64,000 nt of DNA. Origin: Bradyrhizobium ottawaense (GTDB lineage Bacteria > Pseudomonadota > Alphaproteobacteria > Rhizobiales > Xanthobacteraceae). The translations under genes were made by a program, and so were the position numbers. This document shows, in pieces, positions 2,391 to 60,476 of this stretch; position 1 is the stretch's first letter, and each line of letters starts with the position of its first letter. The stretch spans positions 930,001 to 994,000 of the forward strand of contig NZ_CP029425.2 in the NCBI RefSeq assembly GCF_002278135.3. Reading direction: 5' to 3'. Below the pieces are notes generated by a model. It was not told where the DNA came from. It saw nothing but the letters and a program-made list of their open reading frames with translations, and made no database searches.

Positions 2391-2642
2391 ATGCTCGACA
2401 GGCCTGCGCAACTCGCCACCCGTTACGTGCGCACCCCCGAGGCCGCGCGCCTCCTCGGCATCTCGCCGCGCACGCTTGAAAAATATCGCTGCCATGGCAA
2501 TGGCCCGACTTTTCGCAAGCTCGGCGGCCGCGTTGTCTACGCCATCGGCGATCTCGAAGCCTGGGCCGATCAGGCCGCCTGCAGCTCAACGTCGGATCCG
2601 CGCTACCTCGAAGCGCGCGCCGCCGGCAACGCGCATCGCTAA
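2391..2642 (+). CDS. rdfS: Excisionase-like HTH protein (RdfS-like)
   Basis: An 83-residue protein with one helix_turn_helix_17/MerR-like fold: YVRTPEAARLLGISPRTLEKYRCHG then PTFRKLGGRVVYAIGDLEAWAD, the classic excisionase/AlpA pattern with a basic wing. The ATG at 2391 follows GGAGA at suitable distance; longer readings upstream lack the family pattern. It lies directly after the fseA-like frames and 13 bases before the replication initiator. In ICEMlSymR7A, RdfS is the recombination directionality factor that drives IntS to excise the ICE and is switched on by FseA. No tyrosine integrase is visible here, so the partner must lie outside the window if it survives. Confidence 0.75.
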   Translation: MLDRPAQLATRYVRTPEAARLLGISPRTLEKYRCHGNGPTFRKLGGRVVYAIGDLEAWADQAACSSTSDPRYLEARAAGNAHR

Positions 2643-2655
2643 GGCAACGCTCGTC

Positions 2656-3771
2656 ATGTCGTCGCGTCGCCTCATCACACCCAGCGAGCGAAGCAAGCTC
2701 GACCCGTTCGTTGTCGCCACCGGTGATGCCAGCCCGCGTGATCAACGCGACCTGATGGAGCGCCCGTTCTTTTCGCTCGCCAAGGCCAAGCGAACAAGAC
2801 CGATCCTCTACCAGACCGGCGACGTGTGTGTCGAAGTCTATGCAGTTCCTGAGCACGGTATGGCGACCATTTGGGATGCCGACGTGCTGATTTGGGCGGC
2901 GAGCCAGATTGTCGAGGCCGAGAACCTCGGTCTGAAGACCTCGCGCTTCCTGCGCTTCACACCCTACCAGCTTCTGACCGCAGTCGGCCGGCAGACCGGC
3001 GCCCGCGACTACAAGCTCTTGAAGGGGGCATTGGCCCGCCTGCAGGCGACCGTCATCCGCACCAGCATCCGGCAGGGGGAGCATTGGCGGCGCCACCAGT
3101 TCTCATGGATCAACGAATGGGAGGAATGCGCGACGCGCGACGGTCGGGTGCAGGGAATGGAATTCGTCCTTCCCGACTGGCTCTATCGCGGCGTCATCGA
3201 TCGCTCACTCGTTCTCACGATCGATCCGGCCTATTTCAGCCTGACTGGTGGGATCGAGCGCTGGCTCTACCGCGTCGCGCGCAAGCATGCTGGCCGCCAG
3301 CCGAGAGGTTGGCTGTTCGAGGTCGCACACCTCCATGAGAAATCCGGCAGCCTCGCCAAGCCTGCAGACTTCGCCTTTGATCTCCGCCGGATCGCGGCAC
3401 GTCAACCGCTGCCAGGCTACTGCCTGAGCATCGAACGCAGGGAACGCCGAGAGCTATTGCGCATCCTGCCATCGAAGTCATTCACAGCTCCTGTGGACGG
3501 CGCTGTGAATCAGCTCGGGACTTCGGGCGTTCACACTATCGGGACTCCGGGCGTGCCGGTATCGGGATTCCGGGAGTGCAAACCACAGCTAACGCTTTGG
3601 CCAGGAAACACGATCGCCTGCCCTAACTTAGAGTCTAACTTAGAATCTAACTGTTGTAGTGGGGCCGCGCGTCTTGCGGATAACACCGACATCCGCGCTC
3701 AGCCGCCAACCGAGCACCCAAGCCAACCATCTCTGCCGCTTTCAGGTCGCAAGACGGGAGGCATGCGATGA
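2656..3771 (+). CDS. Replication initiator protein A-like protein
   Basis: A 371-residue protein of the replication initiator A family common on alphaproteobacterial ICEs and plasmids: LMERPFFSLAKAKRTRPI near the start, then FLRFTPYQLLTAVGR, YKLLKGALARLQATVIRT and WLYRVARKHAGRQ, typical of paired winged-helix initiators. The ATG at 2656 lies 13 bases after rdfS. The family may allow limited autonomous copying of the excised circle; that is inference. The last third is low-complexity and encodes GTSGVHTIGTPGVPV and NLESNLESN, which overlie two sets of DNA repeats listed separately. The stop overlaps the parA start as ATGA. Confidence 0.8.
   Translation: MSSRRLITPSERSKLDPFVVATGDASPRDQRDLMERPFFSLAKAKRTRPILYQTGDVCVEVYAVPEHGMATIWDADVLIWAASQIVEAENLGLKTSRFLRFTPYQLLTAVGRQTGARDYKLLKGALARLQATVIRTSIRQGEHWRRHQFSWINEWEECATRDGRVQGMEFVLPDWLYRGVIDRSLVLTIDPAYFSLTGGIERWLYRVARKHAGRQPRGWLFEVAHLHEKSGSLAKPADFAFDLRRIAARQPLPGYCLSIERRERRELLRILPSKSFTAPVDGAVNQLGTSGVHTIGTPGVPVSGFRECKPQLTLWPGNTIACPNLESNLESNCCSGAARLADNTDIRAQPPTEHPSQPSLPLSGRKTGGMR
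3514..3578 (+). repeat. Three iteron-like direct repeats inside the initiator gene
   Basis: CTCGGGACTTCGGGCGTT (3514), ATCGGGACTCCGGGCGTG (3538) and ATCGGGATTCCGGGAGTG (3561) are 18-base direct repeats. The first two are 24 bases apart and the second and third 23, so the third copy is read in another codon phase. DNA likeness kept without keeping the protein frame points to a DNA-level role such as initiator binding. Confidence 0.65.
3623..3653 (+). repeat. Short tandem 12-bp repeats inside the initiator gene
   Basis: CTAACTTAGAGT, CTAACTTAGAAT and a partial CTAACTG follow each other without spacers. They are AT-rich against a GC-rich background and sit about 40 bases after the other repeat set, as would suit an origin with iterons beside an AT-rich opening region. 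The protein reads NLESNLESNC here. Confidence 0.6.
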
Positions 3772-40280: not shown

Positions 40281-40320
40281 TATATGTGGTGTCGTAGTGG
40301 TTTTAAATTCGCATATATGG
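40281..40320 (+). promoter_or_regulatory. Candidate NrdR box pair
   Basis: TATATGTGGTGT (40281) and CATATATGGTGG (40312) resemble halves of the NrdR consensus (acaCwATATaTwGTgt), and their TATATG cores are 33 bases apart, about three helix turns as is usual for NrdR sites. The match is incomplete, so this is tentative. Confidence 0.35.
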
Positions 40321-40321
40321 T

Positions 40322-40530
40322 GGCACGGTGTTAGGGGGGAACCCATTGTGTCGGCAGCGGCTATTCCGAGGCATTAGCGCGACAGCGCTGGGAAGGCCGA
40401 CAGCCGCAGCGACCCGCGAGCCAGGAAACCTACCGCGACAGAACCCATGTCCTCGGGCGGGGTGCCCGGTGGGTCGCTTGCAGCCGGGGACATTTGCCCG
40501 GTCCCCTCGCAAGTCGTCCGCACGGTCCCA
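40322..40530 (+). ncRNA. Cobalamin (AdoCbl) riboswitch upstream of nrdA
   Basis: Conserved 3' blocks of the B12 element are present in order: GCTGGGAAGGC (40387-40397), then GACCCGCGAGCCAGGAAACC (40411-40430) and TACCGCGACA (40431-40440). An upstream GGGGGGAACCC (40334-40344) may be the worn counterpart of the GGGAA core. G-rich and C-rich arms at 40484-40507 (CCGGGGAC / CCCGGTCCCC) could be the expression platform just before the start codon. B12 switches before B12-independent ribonucleotide reductases are known in bacteria such as Streptomyces, where they shut off class Ia genes when B12 allows the class II enzyme. The 5' half of the aptamer is poorly matched. Confidence 0.7.
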
Positions 40531-48433: not shown

Positions 48434-49025
48434 TTCGACGTGGGAGCGCGAGTACGGGAAGAAGCCAAGCGGGCGCCGCTATCGGCGCTTCCGGATCATA
48501 TCGCCCAGTATTGCAGTCAAAGACTATTAATTAAGAACGGAGATCCCAATGACGTTCCCCAGGGCGTGCAGGGGGGCAATAGAAAGGGCGCGGCAACGCG
48601 GTTCGGCTCAAATCGTGCTGCTACCGTGAGGGACCCTGACGAGTTTGACGATCGAACGCATGTTTTCCCGAGGGCTGAGACGGAACAAGAGCTTGGGATC
48701 ACGGTCATAATGGAAAAGTGGATCGTCTCCCAATCCGTCATCAATCCAGCCTTTGACTCTAACGAGAGAGAAAAGACTGGCTAGCAGCTAGGCGACATCT
48801 CGCTCTCGACACTCGATCTCGCCGATTGCAGCCGCGATCGCTCGTGAATAAGGGAAGCGACCAAGGCCCGGCAGTTGGTCTCCCCGGTCACAGCAACAGT
48901 CCAGCCCTATCACTACAAGGCGCTGCTCCTTCCGAGCCCACCAAATTCGGTAGTTGAGGCGACCGCGGCAGATTTGCAGAGTAAGGCCATCTGTCGATCA
49001 CAGGGGCGAGGCCGGAGCAAGCTTT
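48434..49025. other. Stretch with one doubtful frame
   Basis: A plus frame at 48440-48784 (114 codons: LGITVIMEKWIVSQSVINPA near the end) is open but unmatched to any family I know and has no clear ribosome-binding site. Nothing else seen. Confidence 0.4.
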
Positions 49026-50723: not shown

Positions 50724-50969
50724 TCAACCCTCCCACTCTAGAAGCGCGCGTATGCGTGCAGCGATCCGCCGCGCGTCGTTCGGCCTAAGATTGGGCTTCA
50801 CGCTGTCGAGGATGCCTAACACTGCCCGAGCCTCCTCGGCATCAAATGTCGCGACTTGGCGATCTGCCAGGCTCAAAGACTGATCGGCCGCCCGGGCCTG
50901 ATTGGCTGTAAGCACCTCAAGCGCTTGCGACCGTAGGGCCGTGATGTGCCGCTCGAATATATGCATCCT
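50724..50969 (-). CDS. Small hypothetical protein with hairpin leader (gene a)
   Basis: An 81-residue protein, MHIFERHITALRSQALEVLT, LADRQVATFDAEEARAVLGI, PNDARRIAARIRALLEWEG. Helical and mixed charge; no domain known to me. The start may also be at an upstream ATG (50978). The 79-bp hairpin element at 50985 stands directly before the start. It shares that leader type with two other small minus-strand genes further right. Confidence 0.65.
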   Translation of the reverse strand, partial: RMHIFERHITALRSQALEVLTANQARAADQSLSLADRQVATFDAEEARAVLGILDSVKPNLRPNDARRIAARIRALLEWEG

Positions 50970-50984
50970 TTGGCCCCATGGTTG

Positions 50985-51063
50985 GGAGTTAGCGGCCACG
51001 TGGCTCGGCGCTCAATCTGAGAGAAGAAGAAGCGCTGTCCCTACCACGCGCGCCGCTAACTCC
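50985..51063. repeat. Hairpin element copy 1
   Basis: Outer arms GGAGTTAGCGGC (50985-50996) and GCCGCTAACTCC (51052-51063) are a perfect 12-bp inverted repeat. Inside, GTGGCTCGGCGC faces GCGCTGTCCCTACCAC, leaving an uneven internal loop (CTC against TCCCTA). The minus strand leads straight into gene a. Confidence 0.8.
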
Positions 51064-51084
51064 ACCGCCAGCTTCGGGAGGGAA

Positions 51085-51200
51085 GAAGGCTGTCGGTAGG
51101 ATACATCCACCGCAAAAAGCCGTGGCACAACTACCAGAACTGGTTGCCGCATCACAGTCACGGTCGCCTGGCAATGGGGGCGCGACTCGGCGCCGAGAAG
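51085..51200 (+). pseudogene. Worn small plus-strand gene with PW-NYQ-WLP core
   Basis: One frame reads RLSVGYIHRKKPWHNYQNWL then PHHSHGRLAM, alike to the frame at 52088 (KLTAESIVRESPWRNYQDWL). No start remains. It follows hairpin copy 1 as the other follows copy 2, and a half copy of the hairpin core (GACTCGGCGCC) lies at about 51180. Confidence 0.45.
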
Positions 51201-51279
51201 GATGCAAGGCAACCTACTGGGATTGGTCGGCACACTAACCCACGGCCGAGGTCCACACTGAGGCTCTTTTTTCTTGCAG

Positions 51280-51576
51280 ATGGGAGAGACCCGAGTGACC
51301 AGCCGCATACGAATTCAATGCATCAACAAGACTGACAGGCAGAACCCTCACGAGCGAATCAAAAACGTTGGCGGAGTAAACCCGGACGGGTCTAGGTGGA
51401 AGCAATCCGTCGATCACACGATCAAAGAAATCGAAAACGGTGTATGGGAGTTCTATGTCGAGGAAAAGCGCACGGCCGATGTGATTGTGGCCGTCCACAA
51501 CGGGCACAAGTACATCAAGACGAAGGCCGACGGCATTCAACCGGACAATTTGCTTTCACTCCCTGAGTGCCCCTAA
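51280..51576 (+). CDS. DUF3892 protein
   Basis: A 98-residue protein: RIQCINKTDRQNPHERIKNV, GGVNPDGSRWKQSVDHTIKE, GVWEFYVEEKRTADVIVAVH and GHKYIKTKADGIQPDNLLSL. This is a complete DUF3892 domain, small beta-rich protein of unknown role often carried on mobile DNA. GGGAGA and the ATG at 51280 or the GTG at 51295 can start it. Opposite in strand to its neighbours. Confidence 0.85.
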   Translation: MGETRVTSRIRIQCINKTDRQNPHERIKNVGGVNPDGSRWKQSVDHTIKEIENGVWEFYVEEKRTADVIVAVHNGHKYIKTKADGIQPDNLLSLPECP

Positions 51577-51678
51577 TTGTCGCAAGGATAAAGTTCATTG
51601 GCGATCCGGCTGATCAGTAGTATAATTTTGATAGAGCGCCTCCCGAGAGTCACTTGAAAAGGTTGGACGTGTACGCTC

Positions 51679-51996
51679 CTATCTGCCAGCCTTCCGTTCT
51701 GAGGTCAGCCAGGCTGGGAGCGGATCGCTCGATGCGGTCTCCCCGGTAGGCAGACCGGACGCCCGGTCCAGATACCAATCAATCGCCTTGCGATCCCAAC
51801 GCTGAGTGCCGGGGATAGCCTCCGGTACCAAGCCCTTCTTAATCCACGTGTTGAACGCGTCCTTGGAGCACCCGCAATAGGCGGCTGCGTTGGCCTTAGT
51901 GAGGCCCCGAGGTGCGATCTGATCGGCGCGTAGTATCCGCTCCGAACGTCTCAGCTCTGCGGGCGAAGGTCTGTCACGCTGATGATCACCGTCCAT
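51679..51996 (-). CDS. Helix-turn-helix protein, excisionase-like (gene b)
   Basis: A 105-residue protein. The centre, RGLTKANAAAYCGCSKDAFN then TWIKKGLVPEAIPGTQRWDR and KAIDWYLDRA, is a MerR/Xis-type helix-turn-helix with wing. Hairpin copy 2 lies 15 bases before the ATG, and the sequence between (ACCATAGGTCCAAATG) resembles that before gene a (ACCATGGGGCCAAAGG). It might control excision of a small element formed by this gene group, though no integrase is near. Confidence 0.75.
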   Translation of the reverse strand: MDGDHQRDRPSPAELRRSERILRADQIAPRGLTKANAAAYCGCSKDAFNTWIKKGLVPEAIPGTQRWDRKAIDWYLDRASGLPTGETASSDPLPAWLTSERKAGR

Positions 51997-52010
51997 TTGG
52001 ACCTATGGTA

Positions 52011-52084
52011 GAAGTTAGCGGCAACGTGACTCCGCGCCCGAGCTGGAATGAGAGGCGCTGTCCCTACCACGCCCCGCCAACTTC
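52011..52084. repeat. Hairpin element copy 2
   Basis: Outer arms GAAGTTAGCGG and CCGCCAACTTC (one mismatch). Core GTGACTCCGCGC faces GCGCTGTCCCTACCAC. Directly upstream of gene b on the minus strand. Confidence 0.75.
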
Positions 52085-52087
52085 AAC

Positions 52088-52210
52088 ATGGCCAGCGTCA
52101 AGCGACTGAAGCTGACGGCGGAAAGTATCGTCCGGGAAAGCCCGTGGCGCAACTACCAGGACTGGTTGCCGCCAGACGCTTGGGCGATCAGTCTCAGCGA
52201 CCGGAAGCAA
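52088..52210 (+). CDS. Very small plus-strand frame with PW-NYQ-WLP core
   Basis: MASVKRLKLTAESIVRESPW, RNYQDWLPPDAWAISLSDRK; the frame then runs through hairpin copy 3 to 52282. Its likeness to the worn frame at 51085 at protein level (PW-x-NYQ-x-WLP) suggests a real, possibly shortened gene. The codons for NYQ-x-WL also form a DNA hairpin (CAACTACCAG/CTGGTTG). Confidence 0.4.
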
Positions 52211-52272
52211 CGCGGGCACGGCTCGGCGCCAGGTCAGGATAAGAATCGGGCGTTGTCCCTACCGCGCCCGCG
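52211..52272. repeat. Hairpin element copy 3
   Basis: Arms CGCGGGC and GCCCGCG; core CACGGCTCGGCGCC faces GGCGTTGTCCCTACCG. The arms differ from copies 1 and 2 in sequence but still pair, while the internal CTC/TCCCTA loop is kept. Confidence 0.7.
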
Positions 52273-52280
52273 CTGCAATT

Positions 52281-52365
52281 GAGATTAGCGGTGACGTGAC
52301 TCGGCGCTCTAGCCCCCTCGCGTACACCGGGGCACGCACTGTCCCTGCCACGCGCCGCTAAGCTC
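52281..52365. repeat. Hairpin element copy 4
   Basis: Arms GAGATTAGCGG and CCGCTAAGCTC (one mismatch); core GTGACTCGGCGC faces GCACTGTCCCTGCCAC. It follows copy 3 after eight bases. No gene start is seen directly after it on the minus strand other than the region of copies 3 and 2. Confidence 0.72.
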
Positions 52366-52453
52366 AATGGCTGAGTATTCGGGCTAGCTTTCCAAAAGCT
52401 GACAAAGATCCGCGCGGAAAATTTACAAACGAAAAGCGGCCCGCTTGGGCCGT

Positions 52454-52720
52454 TCAAAGCTCAATCTGTTGTGGGCAATCATGCAGCCACGCAAAGACGC
52501 TCGCTAGACTGTAAGGCCGTGCGACTTCATGGCCGTCAAGCTTAATGGGGTGATCTTCGATAAGATAGAATTGCCCGTCGGCTGTTCTGACCATCCGATC
52601 TCTTAGCTCAAACCACACGCCCGTCGGCCACCTTTTATAGGATACTCGCGTCGCGAAATGGACCGCTTCAGCAATGTCCCGCGCGCGCAAATGCCTTAAA
52701 GGCTTAGCCTTTGGTGCCAT
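52454..52720 (-). CDS. Small hypothetical protein with hairpin leader (gene c)
   Basis: An 88-residue protein: MAPKAKPLRHLRARDIAEAV, TRVSYKRWPTGVWFELRDRM, QFYLIEDHPIKLDGHEVARP, YSLASVFAWLHDC. Beta-rich middle, no domain known to me. GAGGAAATC stands before the ATG at 52720, and hairpin copy 5 ends about 25 bases upstream. Gene d (53015-53200) may code for a distant relative of its C-terminal half. Confidence 0.65.
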   Translation of the reverse strand: MAPKAKPLRHLRARDIAEAVHFATRVSYKRWPTGVWFELRDRMVRTADGQFYLIEDHPIKLDGHEVARPYSLASVFAWLHDCPQQIEL

Positions 52721-52746
52721 GATTTCCTCGTCGGCTCAAGAGCCGC

Positions 52747-52814
52747 GCGGATGCGACTCGGCGCCTTTATCGGCTGGGGGGCTTAGATAGAGGCGCTATC
52801 CCTGCGGCATCCGC
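52747..52814. repeat. Hairpin element copy 5
   Basis: Arms GCGGATGC and GCATCCGC pair fully though unlike the arms of other copies; core GACTCGGCGCC faces GCGCTATCCCTGC. Just upstream of gene c on the minus strand. A smaller inverted repeat GTTAGCC/GGCTAAC follows at 52828-52855. Confidence 0.72.
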
Positions 52815-53014
52815 ACTGCCCCGTGAAGTTAGCCCCTCGGATCATAAAGGCTAACCCACACCCTGCTTTCCCATGAACCTTAATCCGCTGGGAGCTGAAG
52901 TGCGGTTTAGCGAGAAAGCCGCCGTGCGTGGCCTACCTAAATTGATAGGCCAGACTGAGCGACTTAACGCCGCTCAGCCTGCCAGTATTTCAGCCTCGGT
53001 CTTTTGCAGATCGA

Positions 53015-53200
53015 TCAGGCCGCATTAAAAAGGCGTTCGGCCCGCTTACGATCAGTGGCAGCCGCATCACGACGGCGGGTCGGATTGGCGCTCAGCCAAT
53101 CTATTGCCCGCTTACGGCCGATTGGCGTCACGATTTCAGACACTCCCGGCTCCCACGTCTCTTCGACCAAATAGACTCGCCCGCCCGCCCGCCCGACCAA
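53015..53200 (-). CDS. Small hypothetical protein (gene d)
   Basis: A 61-residue frame: MVGRAGGRVYLVEETWEPGV, SEIVTPIGRKRAIDWLSANP, RRRDAAATDRKRAERLFNAA. The layout strand-strand-helix resembles the second half of gene c. Its 5' flank is replaced by an IS fragment at about 53220, so the N-terminus and any leader may be missing. Confidence 0.5.
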   Translation of the reverse strand: MVGRAGGRVYLVEETWEPGVSEIVTPIGRKRAIDWLSANPTRRRDAAATDRKRAERLFNAA

Positions 53201-56260: not shown

Positions 56261-56683
56261 CGTTGTGTGCCGAGTATGAGCGACAGCTTGGAGGTGGAAG
56301 TCCTCTATCCAGCCTGATGGCGGCGAAGGATTAGCGAAGCGCAAGGGCGTCATCGTGAGGTGGGGTCTGAAGAAAGCGTGGAGCAAAGCCGCGGCCCGAT
56401 GGACAAACACCGGATAACGAGGCCTACCCGGCCGGACGAGCGAGCAATTGATCGCGAAGTCCAAGGTCATCAAAGGTCGGGGTGGTAAATTCGGCGGGCG
56501 TGCGGTGAAGGCGGTCGGTCTTACCTCGGGAGGTCTGCGCTGTGTCTCGGCAACGAGACTGAGACCGTCGCAAGACGGCCTGACCGCAGCGCAGAAGTCA
56601 GCCGAGGGCGTAGTAGGCGGCAGCGCGCCGCTGAAGGCCTGAACGGTGGAAGTGGTCAGTAGAGCGGCGATCTCGTGCGAGCC

Positions 56684-57393
56684 ATGCGGCAGAAGAATCA
56701 GGTCGAGCTGAACTTGAGCCCCGGAGCGGAGGGTGAAGCCCGAAGCGCCGGCGCCCGAGAGCCTGAAGCGCGTGCGGCGGAAGTCTGTCTCGAACGCCCG
56801 GCGGTCGCAGGACCGTCGATGGAAGACGTTGTCGAGAGTGAGAATCTGAAGGCAGCGTTGGCGCAAGTAAAGCGCAACAAGGGCGCGGCGGGCGTCGACG
56901 GGATGACCGTCGGCGAGCTGTTAGCCCACCTGAAGGAGCACTGGCCTGCGATCCGAGCCCAGTTGCTTGACGGCACCTACAAGCCACAGCCGGTGCGGCG
57001 GGTGGAGATACCGAAGGCGTCGGGCGGCCTGCGGCCGCTCGGCATTCCGACGGTGCTCGACCGCTTGATCCAGCAGGCGGTGATGCAGGTGCTGCAGGCG
57101 GATTGGGATAGGACGTTCGCCGAGACGAGCTTCGGCTTTCGGCCGGGGCGCTCGGCACATCGGGCGGTGGAACGGGCGCAGGCGTACATTGCGGCCGGCC
57201 ACAGCATCGTGGTGGACATCGACCTGGAGAAGTTCTTTGACCGGGTCAACCACGACATCCTGATGGGACTGGTTGCCAAGCGGGTTGCTGACAAGCGCAT
57301 CCTGAAGCTCATCCGCGCCTTCCTGAATGCGGGTGTGTTGGAAGGAGGGCTGGTCAGTCCGACGGAAGAGGGCACGCCGCAGGGCGGTCCGAT
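56684..57393 (+). pseudogene. ltrA: Group II intron reverse transcriptase, N-terminal part
   Basis: Reads VKRNKGAAGVDGMTVGELLA (RT0/1), PVRRVEIPKASGGLRPLGIP (RT1), FAETSFGFRPGRSAHRAVER (RT2), VVDIDLEKFFDRVNHDIL (RT3, first catalytic D) and EGTPQGG (RT4). After GTPQGG the transposon at 57394 cuts the gene; translation ends in PMVP-stop. Confidence 0.92.
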
Positions 57394-59050
57394 GGTTCCC
57401 TGAACGCAAAAGATAACTTTGCGGTGGGGGAGCGGTCACGGAGCTATTGGCGGCGCCGGGCGCCTTTCCACCGGGAGGGGTGGGTGGGAGGGGGATGGAG
57501 TGGCGGATGACGATCTTGTCGTCGCCAACGAGGACTTCCTTCACGAGAAGGCGCAGCACGCGTTGGCGTTCGATTATATCGAGCGCGCCGACGGACGAGC
57601 GGAGGCGCTCGAGGAAGCTAGTCACGGATTCAGCGAGACGCAGACAAACCTCCTGCTCCTGCGATTGGTCTTCGATCGCCTGCAGCGCCGACAAGCAAGC
57701 CTGTTCGCGGCTACGCAAATCGGGCATGCGACTGCGCAGCTCTTCAAGTGAGAGAAGGCTCTCTTGATAGGCCGTGAGGAGACGCTCGATGCTTTTCCGG
57801 GAACGCGCAAGATCGCGGCGAAGCGTTTCCTCCCGGCGCTGTGTGGGATCGGAGTTGCGCGCCGCCTTGAGCCGGCGCTCAAGTTCGTCTTCGATGAGCT
57901 GTCGGTCTTCAAGTAAACGCGCGATCTCTTTCCATACCACCTCGTCCAGCAAATCCTGGCGCGTCGGGCGACTGTCGCAGACCGGCCCGCCGAGCCGGCG
58001 CCAGCCATCCGAGCCCAAGCAGCGGTAGTAATGGATGGTTCGAGCGCTCGACCTGGTCGAGGTGCGATAGAGCCCATAGCCGCATTTGGCGCAGCTCAAC
58101 AATCCTTGCAGGGCGCTCGGCGTGATCGTGCGTCGCGGGGCATGCTTCTTGTTGGCTTCCAAAAGCTCGTTCGCCAATGCGAAGGTCTCTTCGCTGATGA
58201 TGGTCGGCACAGGGATTTCGATCCACTCTGTGCGAGGAAGCTCATGATTTGCGCTATTGCGAGGAGCGACGCCGCCGCGCAATCGCAACGGCCGCGTCAC
58301 ACGCATGCGCGGCGCGATCCGCGTCTTGCCAAAGCAGGCCGTTCCTTTATACGCGGGATTGCGCAGCATCGCCCAGACCGTCGAGCGCTCCCAGCGGCCT
58401 GTTTCTTTGGCTGTCGGAATCTGGCGCTCATTGAGCAGGCGCGTGATGGCGCCGATGCTGTGGCTTTTTGCGGTGTAAAGCTCGTAGACCCAGCGCACGA
58501 TACCGGCCTGTCGCTCGTCGATCTCATAATAGGCGGCAGAGTGATCGGTCTTGCGCTTGTAGCGATAGCCAAACGGAGCGCCGGAAAGCACGCTCACTTG
58601 GCCTTGAAGGGCGCGATGGCGCTTCCCTCGCCGCGACCGTTCCAGGATTTGCGCGCGTTCATATTCGGCGATCATGCCCTGAAACTGCAGCAGCAGCTCG
58701 TCTTCCGGCGTCGCTGCCCGTCTCGAGCGAATGAACAAGACTTCGACGCCGGCGCGCGCGAACTCTTCGATAAGAAGGATTTGATGCGCATAGCGCCGGC
58801 TCAGCCGATCGGGAGCGTAGACGAGCACGGCTTGGATCCGCCCTTCTGCGGCGAGGTCGCGCAGTCGTTCAAGTCCGGGGCGCAACAAGCTCGCGCCGCT
58901 ATAGCCGTCGTCTTCGATCACCCATTCCGCCGGCACGTCGCAGTTCTGCTCGCGCGCGAAAGCGATCAGCGCGCTCGTCTGACTGGCGATCGTGTTCTCC
59001 TCCTTCTGTTTGTCCGACGACACTCTGGCGTAAATCGCGGCGGTCTTCAT
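56921..59050 (-). CDS. Serine recombinase of the inserted transposon
   Basis: Resolvase domain with the nucleophile in IYARVSSDKQKEENTIASQ (serine at residue 11), LVYAPDRLSRRYAHQIL; recombinase domain HSIGAITRLLNERQIPTAKE; zinc ribbon LLSCAKCGYGLYR with YYRCLGSDGW and PVCDSRP; coiled coil to EVLVGDDKIVIRHSIPLPP. The natural C-terminus should be near 57420. As inserted, no stop occurs inside the terminal repeat, so the frame runs on through the repeat and about 480 bases of antisense reverse transcriptase, giving 709 residues. Family members are about 540-550. Confidence 0.9.
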   Translation of the reverse strand: MKTAAIYARVSSDKQKEENTIASQTSALIAFAREQNCDVPAEWVIEDDGYSGASLLRPGLERLRDLAAEGRIQAVLVYAPDRLSRRYAHQILLIEEFARAGVEVLFIRSRRAATPEDELLLQFQGMIAEYERAQILERSRRGKRHRALQGQVSVLSGAPFGYRYKRKTDHSAAYYEIDERQAGIVRWVYELYTAKSHSIGAITRLLNERQIPTAKETGRWERSTVWAMLRNPAYKGTACFGKTRIAPRMRVTRPLRLRGGVAPRNSANHELPRTEWIEIPVPTIISEETFALANELLEANKKHAPRRTITPSALQGLLSCAKCGYGLYRTSTRSSARTIHYYRCLGSDGWRRLGGPVCDSRPTRQDLLDEVVWKEIARLLEDRQLIEDELERRLKAARNSDPTQRREETLRRDLARSRKSIERLLTAYQESLLSLEELRSRMPDLRSREQACLSALQAIEDQSQEQEVCLRLAESVTSFLERLRSSVGALDIIERQRVLRLLVKEVLVGDDKIVIRHSIPLPPTPPGGKAPGAANSSVTAPPPQSYLLRSGNHRTALRRALFRRTDQPSFQHTRIQEGADELQDALVSNPLGNQSHQDVVVDPVKELLQVDVHHDAVAGRNVRLRPFHRPMCRAPRPKAEARLGERPIPIRLQHLHHRLLDQAVEHRRNAERPQAARRLRYLHPPHRLWLVGAVKQLGSDRRPVLLQVG

Positions 59051-59198
59051 CTTCGCCTCCCGTCACATCGGCGCCAGCGCGCGCGAAGCGCACCTGATCT
59101 GGAACGAGAATTTCGTAAACCTGTTCAAGTTTGACGGCGACGAGGCGATCGAACGCAAATTCGAGTCGAACGTCGCGTTTTTTTCGCCGCTCAGCCAT
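58899..59198 (-). CDS. Small protein between RHH gene and recombinase
   Basis: MAERRKKRDVRLEFAFDRLV then AVKLEQVYEILVPDQVRFAR overlaps the end of the RHH gene by eight bases and the recombinase start by about 150. The first 40 residues look coding (basic, then helical); the rest is the shadow of the recombinase and doubtful. Confidence 0.45.
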   Translation of the reverse strand: MAERRKKRDVRLEFAFDRLVAVKLEQVYEILVPDQVRFARAGADVTGGEDEDRRDLRQSVVGQTEGGEHDRQSDERADRFRARAELRRAGGMGDRRRRL

Positions 59199-59520
59199 CT
59201 TCGCGGACAGACGCGAGATAAGCGGCCACCGCTCGGCGCATCACCTCGCTTGCCGAAAGCCTGGAAGCCGTCGCATGCGTCTGGAGTTTTTGGGCAAGAT
59301 CGGCCGGCATCTTCAGGGAGAGCGTCACTGATGGCTGCGGCGCGGGAAGGAGCCGCTCCCTGCTTTTGGCCACTTCGAGATAGCGATAGGCCTGCCGCAG
59401 CGACAAGCCGCTTTCGCGCGACAGCACCAAGGCCGCCTCCGCCATGCCGATTTTCTTCGCGAGCAAGCGTCGCGCCGCCCTCAGCCGCTCGGCTTTCTGC
59501 GCTTGCGTCGATCGAATCAT
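59191..59520 (-). CDS. HTH-RHH DNA-binding protein of the transposon
   Basis: A 109-residue protein: AEAALVLSRESGLSLRQAYR (helix-turn-helix) then VTLSLKMPADLAQKLQTHAT, LSASEVMRRAVAAYLA (ribbon-helix-helix). First gene of the transposon operon, probably its regulator or a helper of recombination. Confidence 0.78.
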   Translation of the reverse strand: MIRSTQAQKAERLRAARRLLAKKIGMAEAALVLSRESGLSLRQAYRYLEVAKSRERLLPAPQPSVTLSLKMPADLAQKLQTHATASRLSASEVMRRAVAAYLASVREDG

Positions 59521-59627
59521 ATGACATAACGGTATTACCTTTTGCGTCTCAAATCAACAACGGCTCTATCACGCCAGCCGACGATGACGCGTTCAAAGCG
59601 GAAGTTATCTTTTGCGTTCAGGGAGCC

Positions 59628-60296
59628 CTCTCGCCGCTGTTGTCGAACCTGATGCTGGATGTGCTGGACAAGGAACTGGAGAAGCGCGGCCACCGCTTCG
59701 TGCGTTACGCCGACGACTGCAACATCTACGTGCGCAGTCAGCGGGCGGGCGAACGGGTGCTGGCTGGCGTCGAGAGGTTCCTCGAAAAGCGCCTCAAGCT
59801 CAAGATCAACAAAGCGAAGAGCGCGGTTGCCAAACCGAGTGTTCGCAAGTTCCTGGGCTTCAGCTTCACCGGCGGGCAAGAACCGCGGCGGCGCATCGCG
59901 CCGCAGGCACTCGCCCGCTTCAAGGCGAAGGTTCGGGAGCTCACGCGACGCACGCGTGGTCGATGCCTCGTGCAGATCGCCAAAGAACTGTCGACCTACC
60001 TGATTGGGTGGCACGGCTACTTCGGCTTCTGTCAAACCCCGTCGGTGTTGCGCGTGCTTGACCAGTGGATCAGGCGACGGTTGCGCGCCGTTGCCTGGAA
60101 GCAATGGAAGTATGGACCCGCTCGCTTTGCCGAGTTGCGACGCCGCGGCGTCGGCCGGGATCTGGCGGCGCAAACCGCCGGCAGCCCACGTGGCCCTTGG
60201 CGGCTCGCGAACAGCCCCGCGCTCACCATTGCTCTGCCAAACGGCTTCTTTGCCTCACTCGGCTTGGCTTCCGTCGCGGCACGGCGACCCGCATAA
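59628..60296 (+). pseudogene. ltrA: Group II intron reverse transcriptase, C-terminal part
   Basis: Resumes LSPLLSNLMLDVLDKELEKR (RT4), FVRYADDCNIYVRS (RT5, catalytic YADD), KLKINKAKSAVAKPSVRKFL (RT6), FLGFSF (RT7) and the maturase domain X (RTRGRCLVQIAKELSTYLIG, GWHGYFGFCQTPSVLRVLDQ). Complete to the stop; only the transposon separates it from the N-terminal part. Confidence 0.92.
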
Positions 60297-60476
60297 TCCG
60301 CTGAACCGCCGGATACGGACCCGTATGTCCGGTGGTGTGGGAGGGGCGGAGCCGCGAGGCTTCCCCCTATCCCGATTTCAGGGAGTTCGAAAGTCTGCCA
60401 CTGCAAGACATTTTGGATTGGCCGTTGAAATCGAACTCGCCGATGCCAAACGCGCGCTACAAAAGAGCCGCGCTAA

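Follow-up and report, generated by a model that had tools for sequence, protein, structure and literature searches.

Covarying twin hairpins of the BjsR9 family in Bradyrhizobium: candidate leaders of small symbiosis-island genes and stand-alone RNAs

A 64,000 nt stretch of the Bradyrhizobium ottawaense genome (assembly GCF_002278135.3, contig NZ_CP029425.2, positions 930,001 to 994,000; referred to below as the window) contains five conserved hairpins, three of which stand directly in front of small genes on the minus strand, here named a, b and c. The five hairpins belong to a single structured-RNA family whose stems covary, which folds on the strand of the small genes and which was restricted, among the genomes sampled, to nodA-bearing members of the genus Bradyrhizobium. 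One member coincides with BjsR9, a published small RNA (sRNA), and the group is therefore referred to as the BjsR9 family. With a probability of roughly 0.55, members of this family act both as leaders of small symbiosis-island genes and as stand-alone RNAs.

Hairpins of the window

Inspection of the window sequence and a repeat check placed the five hairpins where an initial annotation, made from the sequence alone, had put them. A covariance model (R1) matched all five on the minus strand, at 50984–51068, 52010–52089, 52203–52279, 52280–52370 and 52737–52828, with E values of 7.4e-17 to 9.3e-11, all five being among the 16 copies from which the model was built. Two hairpin types were recognized: type A, with arms like GAAGTTAGCGGC...GCCGCTAACTTC, at 50984, 52010 and 52280, and type B, with arms like GCAGCGCGGGCG...CGCCCGCGCTGC, at 52203 and 52737. 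On the gene strand, the core common to both types reads GGYAGGGACAGCG...CGCCGAGTC. The five window copies do have the shared core described initially, but it is not exact in each, the variants being CTCCGCGC at 52011, GCGTTGTCCCTACC at 52211, GCACTGTCCCTGCC at 52281 and GCGCTATCCCTGCGG at 52747.

Type A often lies directly before type B, with a smaller block (H0) ahead of A. A full unit consists, in this order, of a promoter-like block (block D), an extra first hairpin in some units, H0, A and B, and is often followed by a small gene no more than about 60 bases away; many units were partial, with only A or only B, or without D. Hairpins were found shortly before genes a, b and c, as originally proposed, the hairpin ending 14 bases before b, 17 bases before c and 17 bases before the ATG at 50966, which was taken as the start of gene a (a longer listed ORF of gene a starts within the hairpin). 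The start contexts of genes a and b were likewise alike in the window sequence. The elements of the window are as follows.

50984–51068, minus strand: type A hairpin ahead of gene a (model R1, 79.5 bits)
51069–51094, minus strand: small hairpin H0 upstream of A, a conserved block before A in aligned units (approximate limits, by eye)
51096–51137, minus strand: promoter-like block D (CTGGTAGTTG ... TATCCT), repeat D3, 69 bases before A
About 51175–51197, minus strand: partial type B remnant (half B), repeats D1 and D6 (sequence by eye)
52010–52089, minus strand: type A hairpin ahead of gene b (70.9 bits), 14 bases before b
52090–52116, minus strand: H0, a small hairpin with limits set approximately by eye
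52120–52169, minus strand: promoter-like block D of gene b, repeat D3, with CTGGTAGTTG 70 bases before A
52203–52279, minus strand: type B hairpin (57.2 bits), immediately following A when read along the transcript
52280–52370, minus strand: type A hairpin of a tandem A–B unit, downstream of gene c (65.1 bits; aligned as an A–B unit)
52737–52828, minus strand: type B hairpin (54.7 bits), 17 bases before gene c
About 52826–52850, minus strand: degenerate half A upstream of the type B hairpin of gene c (by eye)

Covariation and the folded strand

Model R1 was built from 16 copies of the B. ottawaense genome that had been found by sequence patterns and were read on the strand that encodes a, b and c; in these copies the paired cells comprised 232 Watson–Crick pairs, 56 G–U, nine A–C, 20 other combinations and three gaps. 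A larger alignment (A4) was made from the best 150 of 183 matches, of which 141 were distinct. Covariation, which the initial annotation had inferred from five copies, was strong over the 141 distinct copies: 92.7 % of cells were paired and 14 of the 20 pairs had changed on both sides, in an alignment that was fitted to the structure of the model and so favours that structure. For the same copies, 14 two-sided pairs were equalled in three of 500 shuffles and the covariation score in none of 500, two-sided cell changes numbered 264 compared with 92.2 in shuffles, and pairing fell to 32–36 % when the partner was slid by one base.

The same alignment contained 474 G–U and 51 A–C combinations on the gene strand, and the model strand folded better in 115 of the 141 copies. 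The large excess of G–U over A–C on the strand of a, b and c identifies the gene strand as the one that is folded, and the assignment of the family to structured RNAs is thus supported by covariation on one strand. Folding energy taken alone gave a weaker signal, since on the minus strand none of 200 shuffles folded as well for three of the five window copies, whereas nine and 22 of 200 did so for the other two. The consensus fold of 24 whole units, in which 18 of the 46 pairs had changed on both sides, contained both hairpins and lacked H0, which rests on conserved sequence that can pair. Columns 27–36, 94–95 and 98–104 of alignment A4 were 94–100 % identical. The tip loops differed in length and sequence, unlike the internal loop, which was near-invariant.

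Coincidence with BjsR9 and the promoter-like block

The passages of Hahn et al. (2016; PMC5082802) used here describe BjsR9 as a plus-strand sRNA of B. japonicum USDA 110 that starts at 1,779,519, gave a Northern blot signal only in nodules and has a predicted RpoD-type promoter; they also place the 5′ end of BjsR8 at 1,929,431, in the 3′ region of nifH. One of the genomes compared (G187) matches USDA 110 in its coordinates, with nifH ending at 1929449, beside the BjsR8 5′ end. The plus strand of this genome, whose identity as USDA 110 rests on these coordinates, contained a type A match at 1779582–1779660 (E 1.4e-5) and a type B match at 1779659–1779747 (E 7.8e-4). The published start of BjsR9 lies 63 bases before the A hairpin, on the same strand as A and B, and the RNA probably reaches the end of B. 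BjsR9 aligned through both hairpins with 23 other units (alignment A5), and H0-like and upstream blocks are also present. By homology of sequence and structure and by its transcribed strand, BjsR9 belongs to the family.

The statement in the initial annotation that no named motif resembles these hairpins was borne out as far as Rfam is concerned, as no match was obtained in the hairpin region at the gathering score (a single match of E 3.8, in a search up to E 5, lay outside the hairpins) and none over BjsR9 up to E 2; BjsR9 itself, however, is a published transcript, so the RNA family is not wholly unknown. In the text of Hahn et al. (2016) considered here, BjsR9 is given as conserved in Bradyrhizobium and is not named among the sRNAs with imperfect copies, and that text does not describe a multi-copy family, twin hairpins or gene leaders. 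The open-licence literature searched yielded no account of the family itself, of twin hairpins built on one core, of the common promoter-like block or of the links to five gene families and to nodA.

Three published starts (BjsR9, BjsR10a and BjsR10b) lie 42, 43 and 40 bases, respectively, past the beginning of a CTGGTAGGT-type block (hand count). Of 145 distinct hairpins (types A and B pooled), 93 had such a block, with up to two mismatches allowed, in the 200 bases upstream; the reverse strand gave 23, and 20 mononucleotide shuffles gave 21.75 on average. Block-to-hairpin distances clustered near 66–76 and 102–116 bases, and the aligned examples also have, by eye, a TAYNNT-like −10 region. 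After removal of repeats, the promoter classes comprised 30 short and 26 long units; by eye, the short rows L125, L090, L127, L139 and the L114 row at 2960, and the long row L029, do not resemble D–H0–A units. At block D of gene a, a transcript start is predicted near 51095 from the spacing at the three published starts, and other copies, including those of the window, are probably transcribed likewise.

BjsR10, which is named only in PMC5082802 among the open-licence literature searched, has the same type of upstream block and H0 without the A and B hairpins. For BjsR10b, two convergent starts are reported in the passages used (PMC5082802), from which wording we infer that 1,780,841 is the plus-strand start; taken as such, it falls within the leader that precedes a homologue of gene a (G187; locus L150, 1642 onward). 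The plus-strand transcript of BjsR10b may thus be the mRNA leader of that homologue, the other start being antisense to it.

Distribution among genomes

The genome scan with a covariance model, which the initial annotation had suggested as a check, gave 19 copies at E ≤ 2.1e-6 in the B. ottawaense genome (8,589,152 bases, single contig), the next match having an E value of 2.58. The copies occupied seven places, near 0.98, 1.05, 1.07, 7.03, 7.15, 7.40 and 7.58 Mb, and the five copies of the window formed the largest cluster. The simple pattern CTCGGCGC-N(10-40)-GCGCTGTCCCT occurred six times in this genome and its reversed form not at all. A single 18-base arm with up to three mismatches gave 20 matches compared with 28 for the reversed control, and a search of that looseness was therefore not specific.

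Searches of the genus, order and family used strict filters and scored 23, 11 and 11 candidates per genome, respectively, so that weak relatives could escape. Matches were obtained in 63 of 195 Bradyrhizobium genomes (B. ottawaense included), in two of 397 genomes of the order sample (B. ottawaense and one of the same genus) and in 24 of 391 genomes of the family sample, all 24 in one of 47 genera; within these order and family samples, no copies were found outside Bradyrhizobium. A fuller search of six genomes at E ≤ 0.001 gave 30, 36, 34, 21, 24 and nine copies. All 63 hairpin-positive Bradyrhizobium genomes had a strong NodA match, and none of the 87 genomes outside the list of 108 strong NodA matches was hairpin-positive (p about 5e-22, uncorrected for relatedness). 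The list was read by hand (best E ≤ 2.9e-84), and 16 genomes with weak matches were counted as negative. Related DNA was present on plasmids of 38 records, all from Bradyrhizobium and 30 of them typed as conjugative, and a search of phage records gave no record with related DNA.

What had been a published orphan nodule sRNA is thereby extended to a family with as many as 36 members in a single genome (six genomes searched at E ≤ 0.001). The family has one conserved core and its own promoter-like block, and many copies are followed by small conserved genes. Nodule-specific RNA regulation in Bradyrhizobium is now directly testable, and the small genes provide candidate small bacteroid proteins.

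Genes adjacent to the hairpins

The genes that accompany the hairpins of the window are listed below.

50724–50966, minus strand: gene a, 80 aa, orphan family
51280–51576, plus strand: DUF3892 gene, antisense to the hairpins (PF13031, E 3.9e-22)
51679–51996, minus strand: gene b, 105 aa, helix-turn-helix (HTH) protein (HTH_17, E 0.0062, below the Pfam cut-off)
52454–52720, minus strand: gene c, 88 aa, no family match
53015–53200, minus strand: gene d, a recurrent neighbour upstream of hairpins, coding status uncertain

Seven gene families (a, b, c, d, e, f and DUF3892) were sought beside 126 hairpin groups, which were formed from the best 150 of 183 matches by merging adjacent hairpins, with some B hairpins missed; gene distances run to the first aligned residue. 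As the loci were chosen for having hairpins and several are homologous, the counts are not independent. Within 450 bases downstream, genes a, b, c, e and f were the first sought gene in 11, six, four, three and seven groups, respectively, and all 31 were in the sense orientation, 24 of them aligning within 60 bases of the hairpin. In 15 of the 126 groups, another hairpin group came first.

Comparison of homologues indicated mostly purifying selection on genes a, b and c. For gene a, whose 38 homologues came from Bradyrhizobium wherever an organism was named, the ratio of non-synonymous to synonymous substitution rates (dN/dS) was 0.15–0.49 in 13 of 14 comparisons, one of the 13 involving an internal stop, and 0.78 in the other; the values were 0.13–0.41 for gene b (five comparisons) and 0.27–0.50 for gene c (three comparisons). 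The DUF3892 gene, which is annotated in a 99.8 % identical plasmid stretch, was also mostly under purifying selection, with one DUF3892 copy carrying a stop. Gene d, whose homologues stand beside hairpins at L098, L099, L100 and L103, gave doubtful values of 0.77 and 0.79. NCBIfam gave no match for a, b, c, d or the DUF3892 gene, and Pfam none for e or f (the latter cut to 89 residues).

Gene b had been regarded initially as excisionase-like and as part of a cassette system. Its PHROG matches (E 1.8e-6 to 5.1e-6) fell in HTH, regulator and excisionase/regulator families, the best being an HTH protein and the excisionase/regulator family ranking third (E 5.1e-6, over the HTH), and a padloc match to mad1 (E 5.3e-5) spanned only the HTH. 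With no NCBIfam match, a Pfam HTH below the cut-off and a position behind only six of the 126 groups, gene b was not retained as the excisionase of such a system.

Gene a and DUF3892 recur as a divergent pair, in the window (50724–50966 with 51280–51576) and at L028, L100, L101, L103, L104 and L106, with a promoter-like block and H0 between them and with or without A, which may constitute a two-gene module. An open frame at 48440–48784 of the window ends, by eye, like the C terminus of gene f (ETEQELGITVIMEKWIVSQS) and is perhaps the remnant of a hairpin-led f.

Probable recombination among repeated modules

Hairpins were included in 32 pairs of within-genome stretches that were at least 90 % identical. 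In ten pairs inspected, lengths and ends differed from pair to pair; by eye, at least one end fell within D, H0, A or B, or at the edge of one of them, in seven pairs, and both ends did so in five. Differing ends in or near repeated blocks fit recombination between repeats and make fixed termini or a single junction less likely, and modules are probably shuffled within symbiosis islands and plasmids in this way. The suggestion that the hairpins are recombination or binding sites of a small cassette system was not supported, as the ten duplicate pairs inspected share no fixed ends.

About thirteen Bradyrhizobium genomes, nine of them matching over nearly the whole query, retain the A–B unit at 1501–1666 of L060 at a single conserved locus, and no clear empty site was seen among the L060-locus matches listed (two candidates scored per genome). 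About 0.8 kb from this unit, L060 has an open frame (2491–3027) for a Peptidase_C58 protein (YopT-type effector).

A gene cassette between A and B was considered for locus L027 and rejected, the gap being an insertion of about 2.6 kb and the unit being unbroken in L102, from another genome. The insertion (about 7340–9978 of L027; B. ottawaense, 7.58 Mb) cuts the A–B unit at the start of B, and L032 contains a second copy, 100 % identical, of 2,541 bases of L027 (7448–9988); this insertion into an RNA unit is recent. Matches to an IS66-like ‘transposase’ near L051 are neighbours that lie outside the hairpin unit. On a conjugative plasmid, about 4 kb separate a hairpin array from three tandem annotated tyrosine recombinases (L085, 1–2205), the layout of which we take to be a recombinase-in-trio.

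Proposed leader and stand-alone roles of the family

As the near-invariant internal loop occurs twice in each full unit, a single trans-acting factor, either a protein or a small ligand, is suggested, which would recognize the loop once in A and once in B. A leader just before the start codon would determine, in bacteroids, how well the small gene is translated or how stable its message is, and geneless copies such as BjsR9 would be stand-alone RNAs that could compete for the same factor. We infer the recognition by a factor, the shared role as leader or decoy and any effect on expression. If the core does bind a ligand or a protein, mobile symbiosis islands would be linked to a single signal.

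A structured RNA leader had been one of the two initial proposals. The presence of an RNA ahead of small genes agrees with BjsR9, with the fold on the gene strand and with the sense orientation of all 31 genes of the five families, but the family is not only a leader, and several observations weigh against the combined leader and stand-alone reading. None of the seven gene families was present within 450 bases in 70 of the 126 groups and DUF3892, the first gene in ten groups, was antisense in all ten, so that a leader role cannot be general; a consistent place ahead of genes on the same strand was seen for five families only. Seven of the 31 sense genes align at 117–156 bases from the hairpin. 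No block was found within 200 bases upstream of 52 of the 145 distinct hairpins, and the unit at 52280–52370 of the window has no block D within that distance and follows, by eye, a terminator-like sequence of gene c. A published transcript exists for one full unit only (BjsR9). Gene conversion among the repeats, by keeping the cores alike, would likewise give the impression of invariance. Finally, 45 of the 108 genomes with strong NodA matches had no hairpin match, and the family is therefore not needed for nodulation.

A bolder and rather improbable extension is that A and B form a tandem sensor RNA, with two copies of one ligand- or protein-binding core placed at the 5′ ends of numerous unrelated small symbiosis-island genes; a bacteroid-specific signal would then control a dispersed mobile regulon, and stand-alone BjsR9-like copies would tune the response. 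Guanidine-II (mini-ykkC) riboswitches consist of two tandem hairpins with conserved tip-loop tetranucleotides ahead of genes. The BjsR9 family is like them in that paired hairpins with a common conserved core stand ahead of genes, but its conserved bases lie in internal loops and its tips are variable, and, with no Rfam match, it was not placed in that class.

An alternative, likewise rather improbable, is that the hairpins are stand-alone sRNAs acting in trans, by base pairing or as protein sponges, with the following genes being chance neighbours. The Northern-validated status of BjsR9 in the portion of PMC5082802 drawn on fits this view, as do the two copies of one core per RNA, which recall protein-titrating RNAs, and the many groups without a sought gene; the consistent sense orientation and the short distances to five unrelated gene families argue against chance, as does the inferred plus-strand start of BjsR10b, which lies within the leader that precedes a homologue of gene a.

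Two further readings are unlikely. The hairpins could be a mobile or repetitive extragenic palindromic (REP)-like DNA repeat, such as a miniature inverted-repeat transposable element (MITE) or a bacterial interspersed mosaic element, that serves transposition and is only incidentally transcribed. They are multi-copy in insertion-rich stretches of plasmids and islands, A and B alternate like mosaic repeats and more than half of the groups have no sought gene nearby. The strict orientation to neighbouring genes (sense for five families, antisense for DUF3892) and the differing ends of the inspected near-identical pairs weigh against such an element. Br-REP1 and Br-REP2 are also repeated Bradyrhizobium palindromes, but their consensus sequences, as given in the part of PMC5082802 considered, differ from those of the hairpins; for USDA 110 that text counts about 200 sites and no fewer than 50 intergenic regions with these repeats, compared with 23 model matches at E < 0.01 in G187. 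On the grounds of pair ends and consensus sequences, the MITE or REP reading was set aside. Similarly doubtful is a passive 5′ or intercistronic element that stabilizes or processes bacteroid mRNAs without a specific factor: stable GC-rich hairpins do stand ahead of and between genes, but bases of the internal loop are conserved far beyond the needs of stability while the stems covary.

Integron attC sites fold with the arm order RYYYAAC...GTTRRRY. That the hairpins are such folded single-strand recombination sites of a gene-cassette system is very improbable, for although they share with attC a single folded strand, an asymmetric internal loop, a variable tip and a place between small, unrelated, co-oriented genes in arrays (DUF3892 being reversed each time), the outer arms of type A (GTTAGC...GCTAAC) have the reverse of that order, no fixed crossover or junction was seen in the ten duplicate pairs, and the transcript and the promoter-like block would be left unexplained. 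No integron integrase was named in the annotated stretches examined, and no search across every genome was made.

Other features of the window

Two further features of the window matched Rfam families. Pieces of a group II intron were present at 56349–60376, with a serine recombinase frame (56921–59050) running antisense into this region, and a Cobalamin riboswitch (RF00174) was present at 40281–40451.

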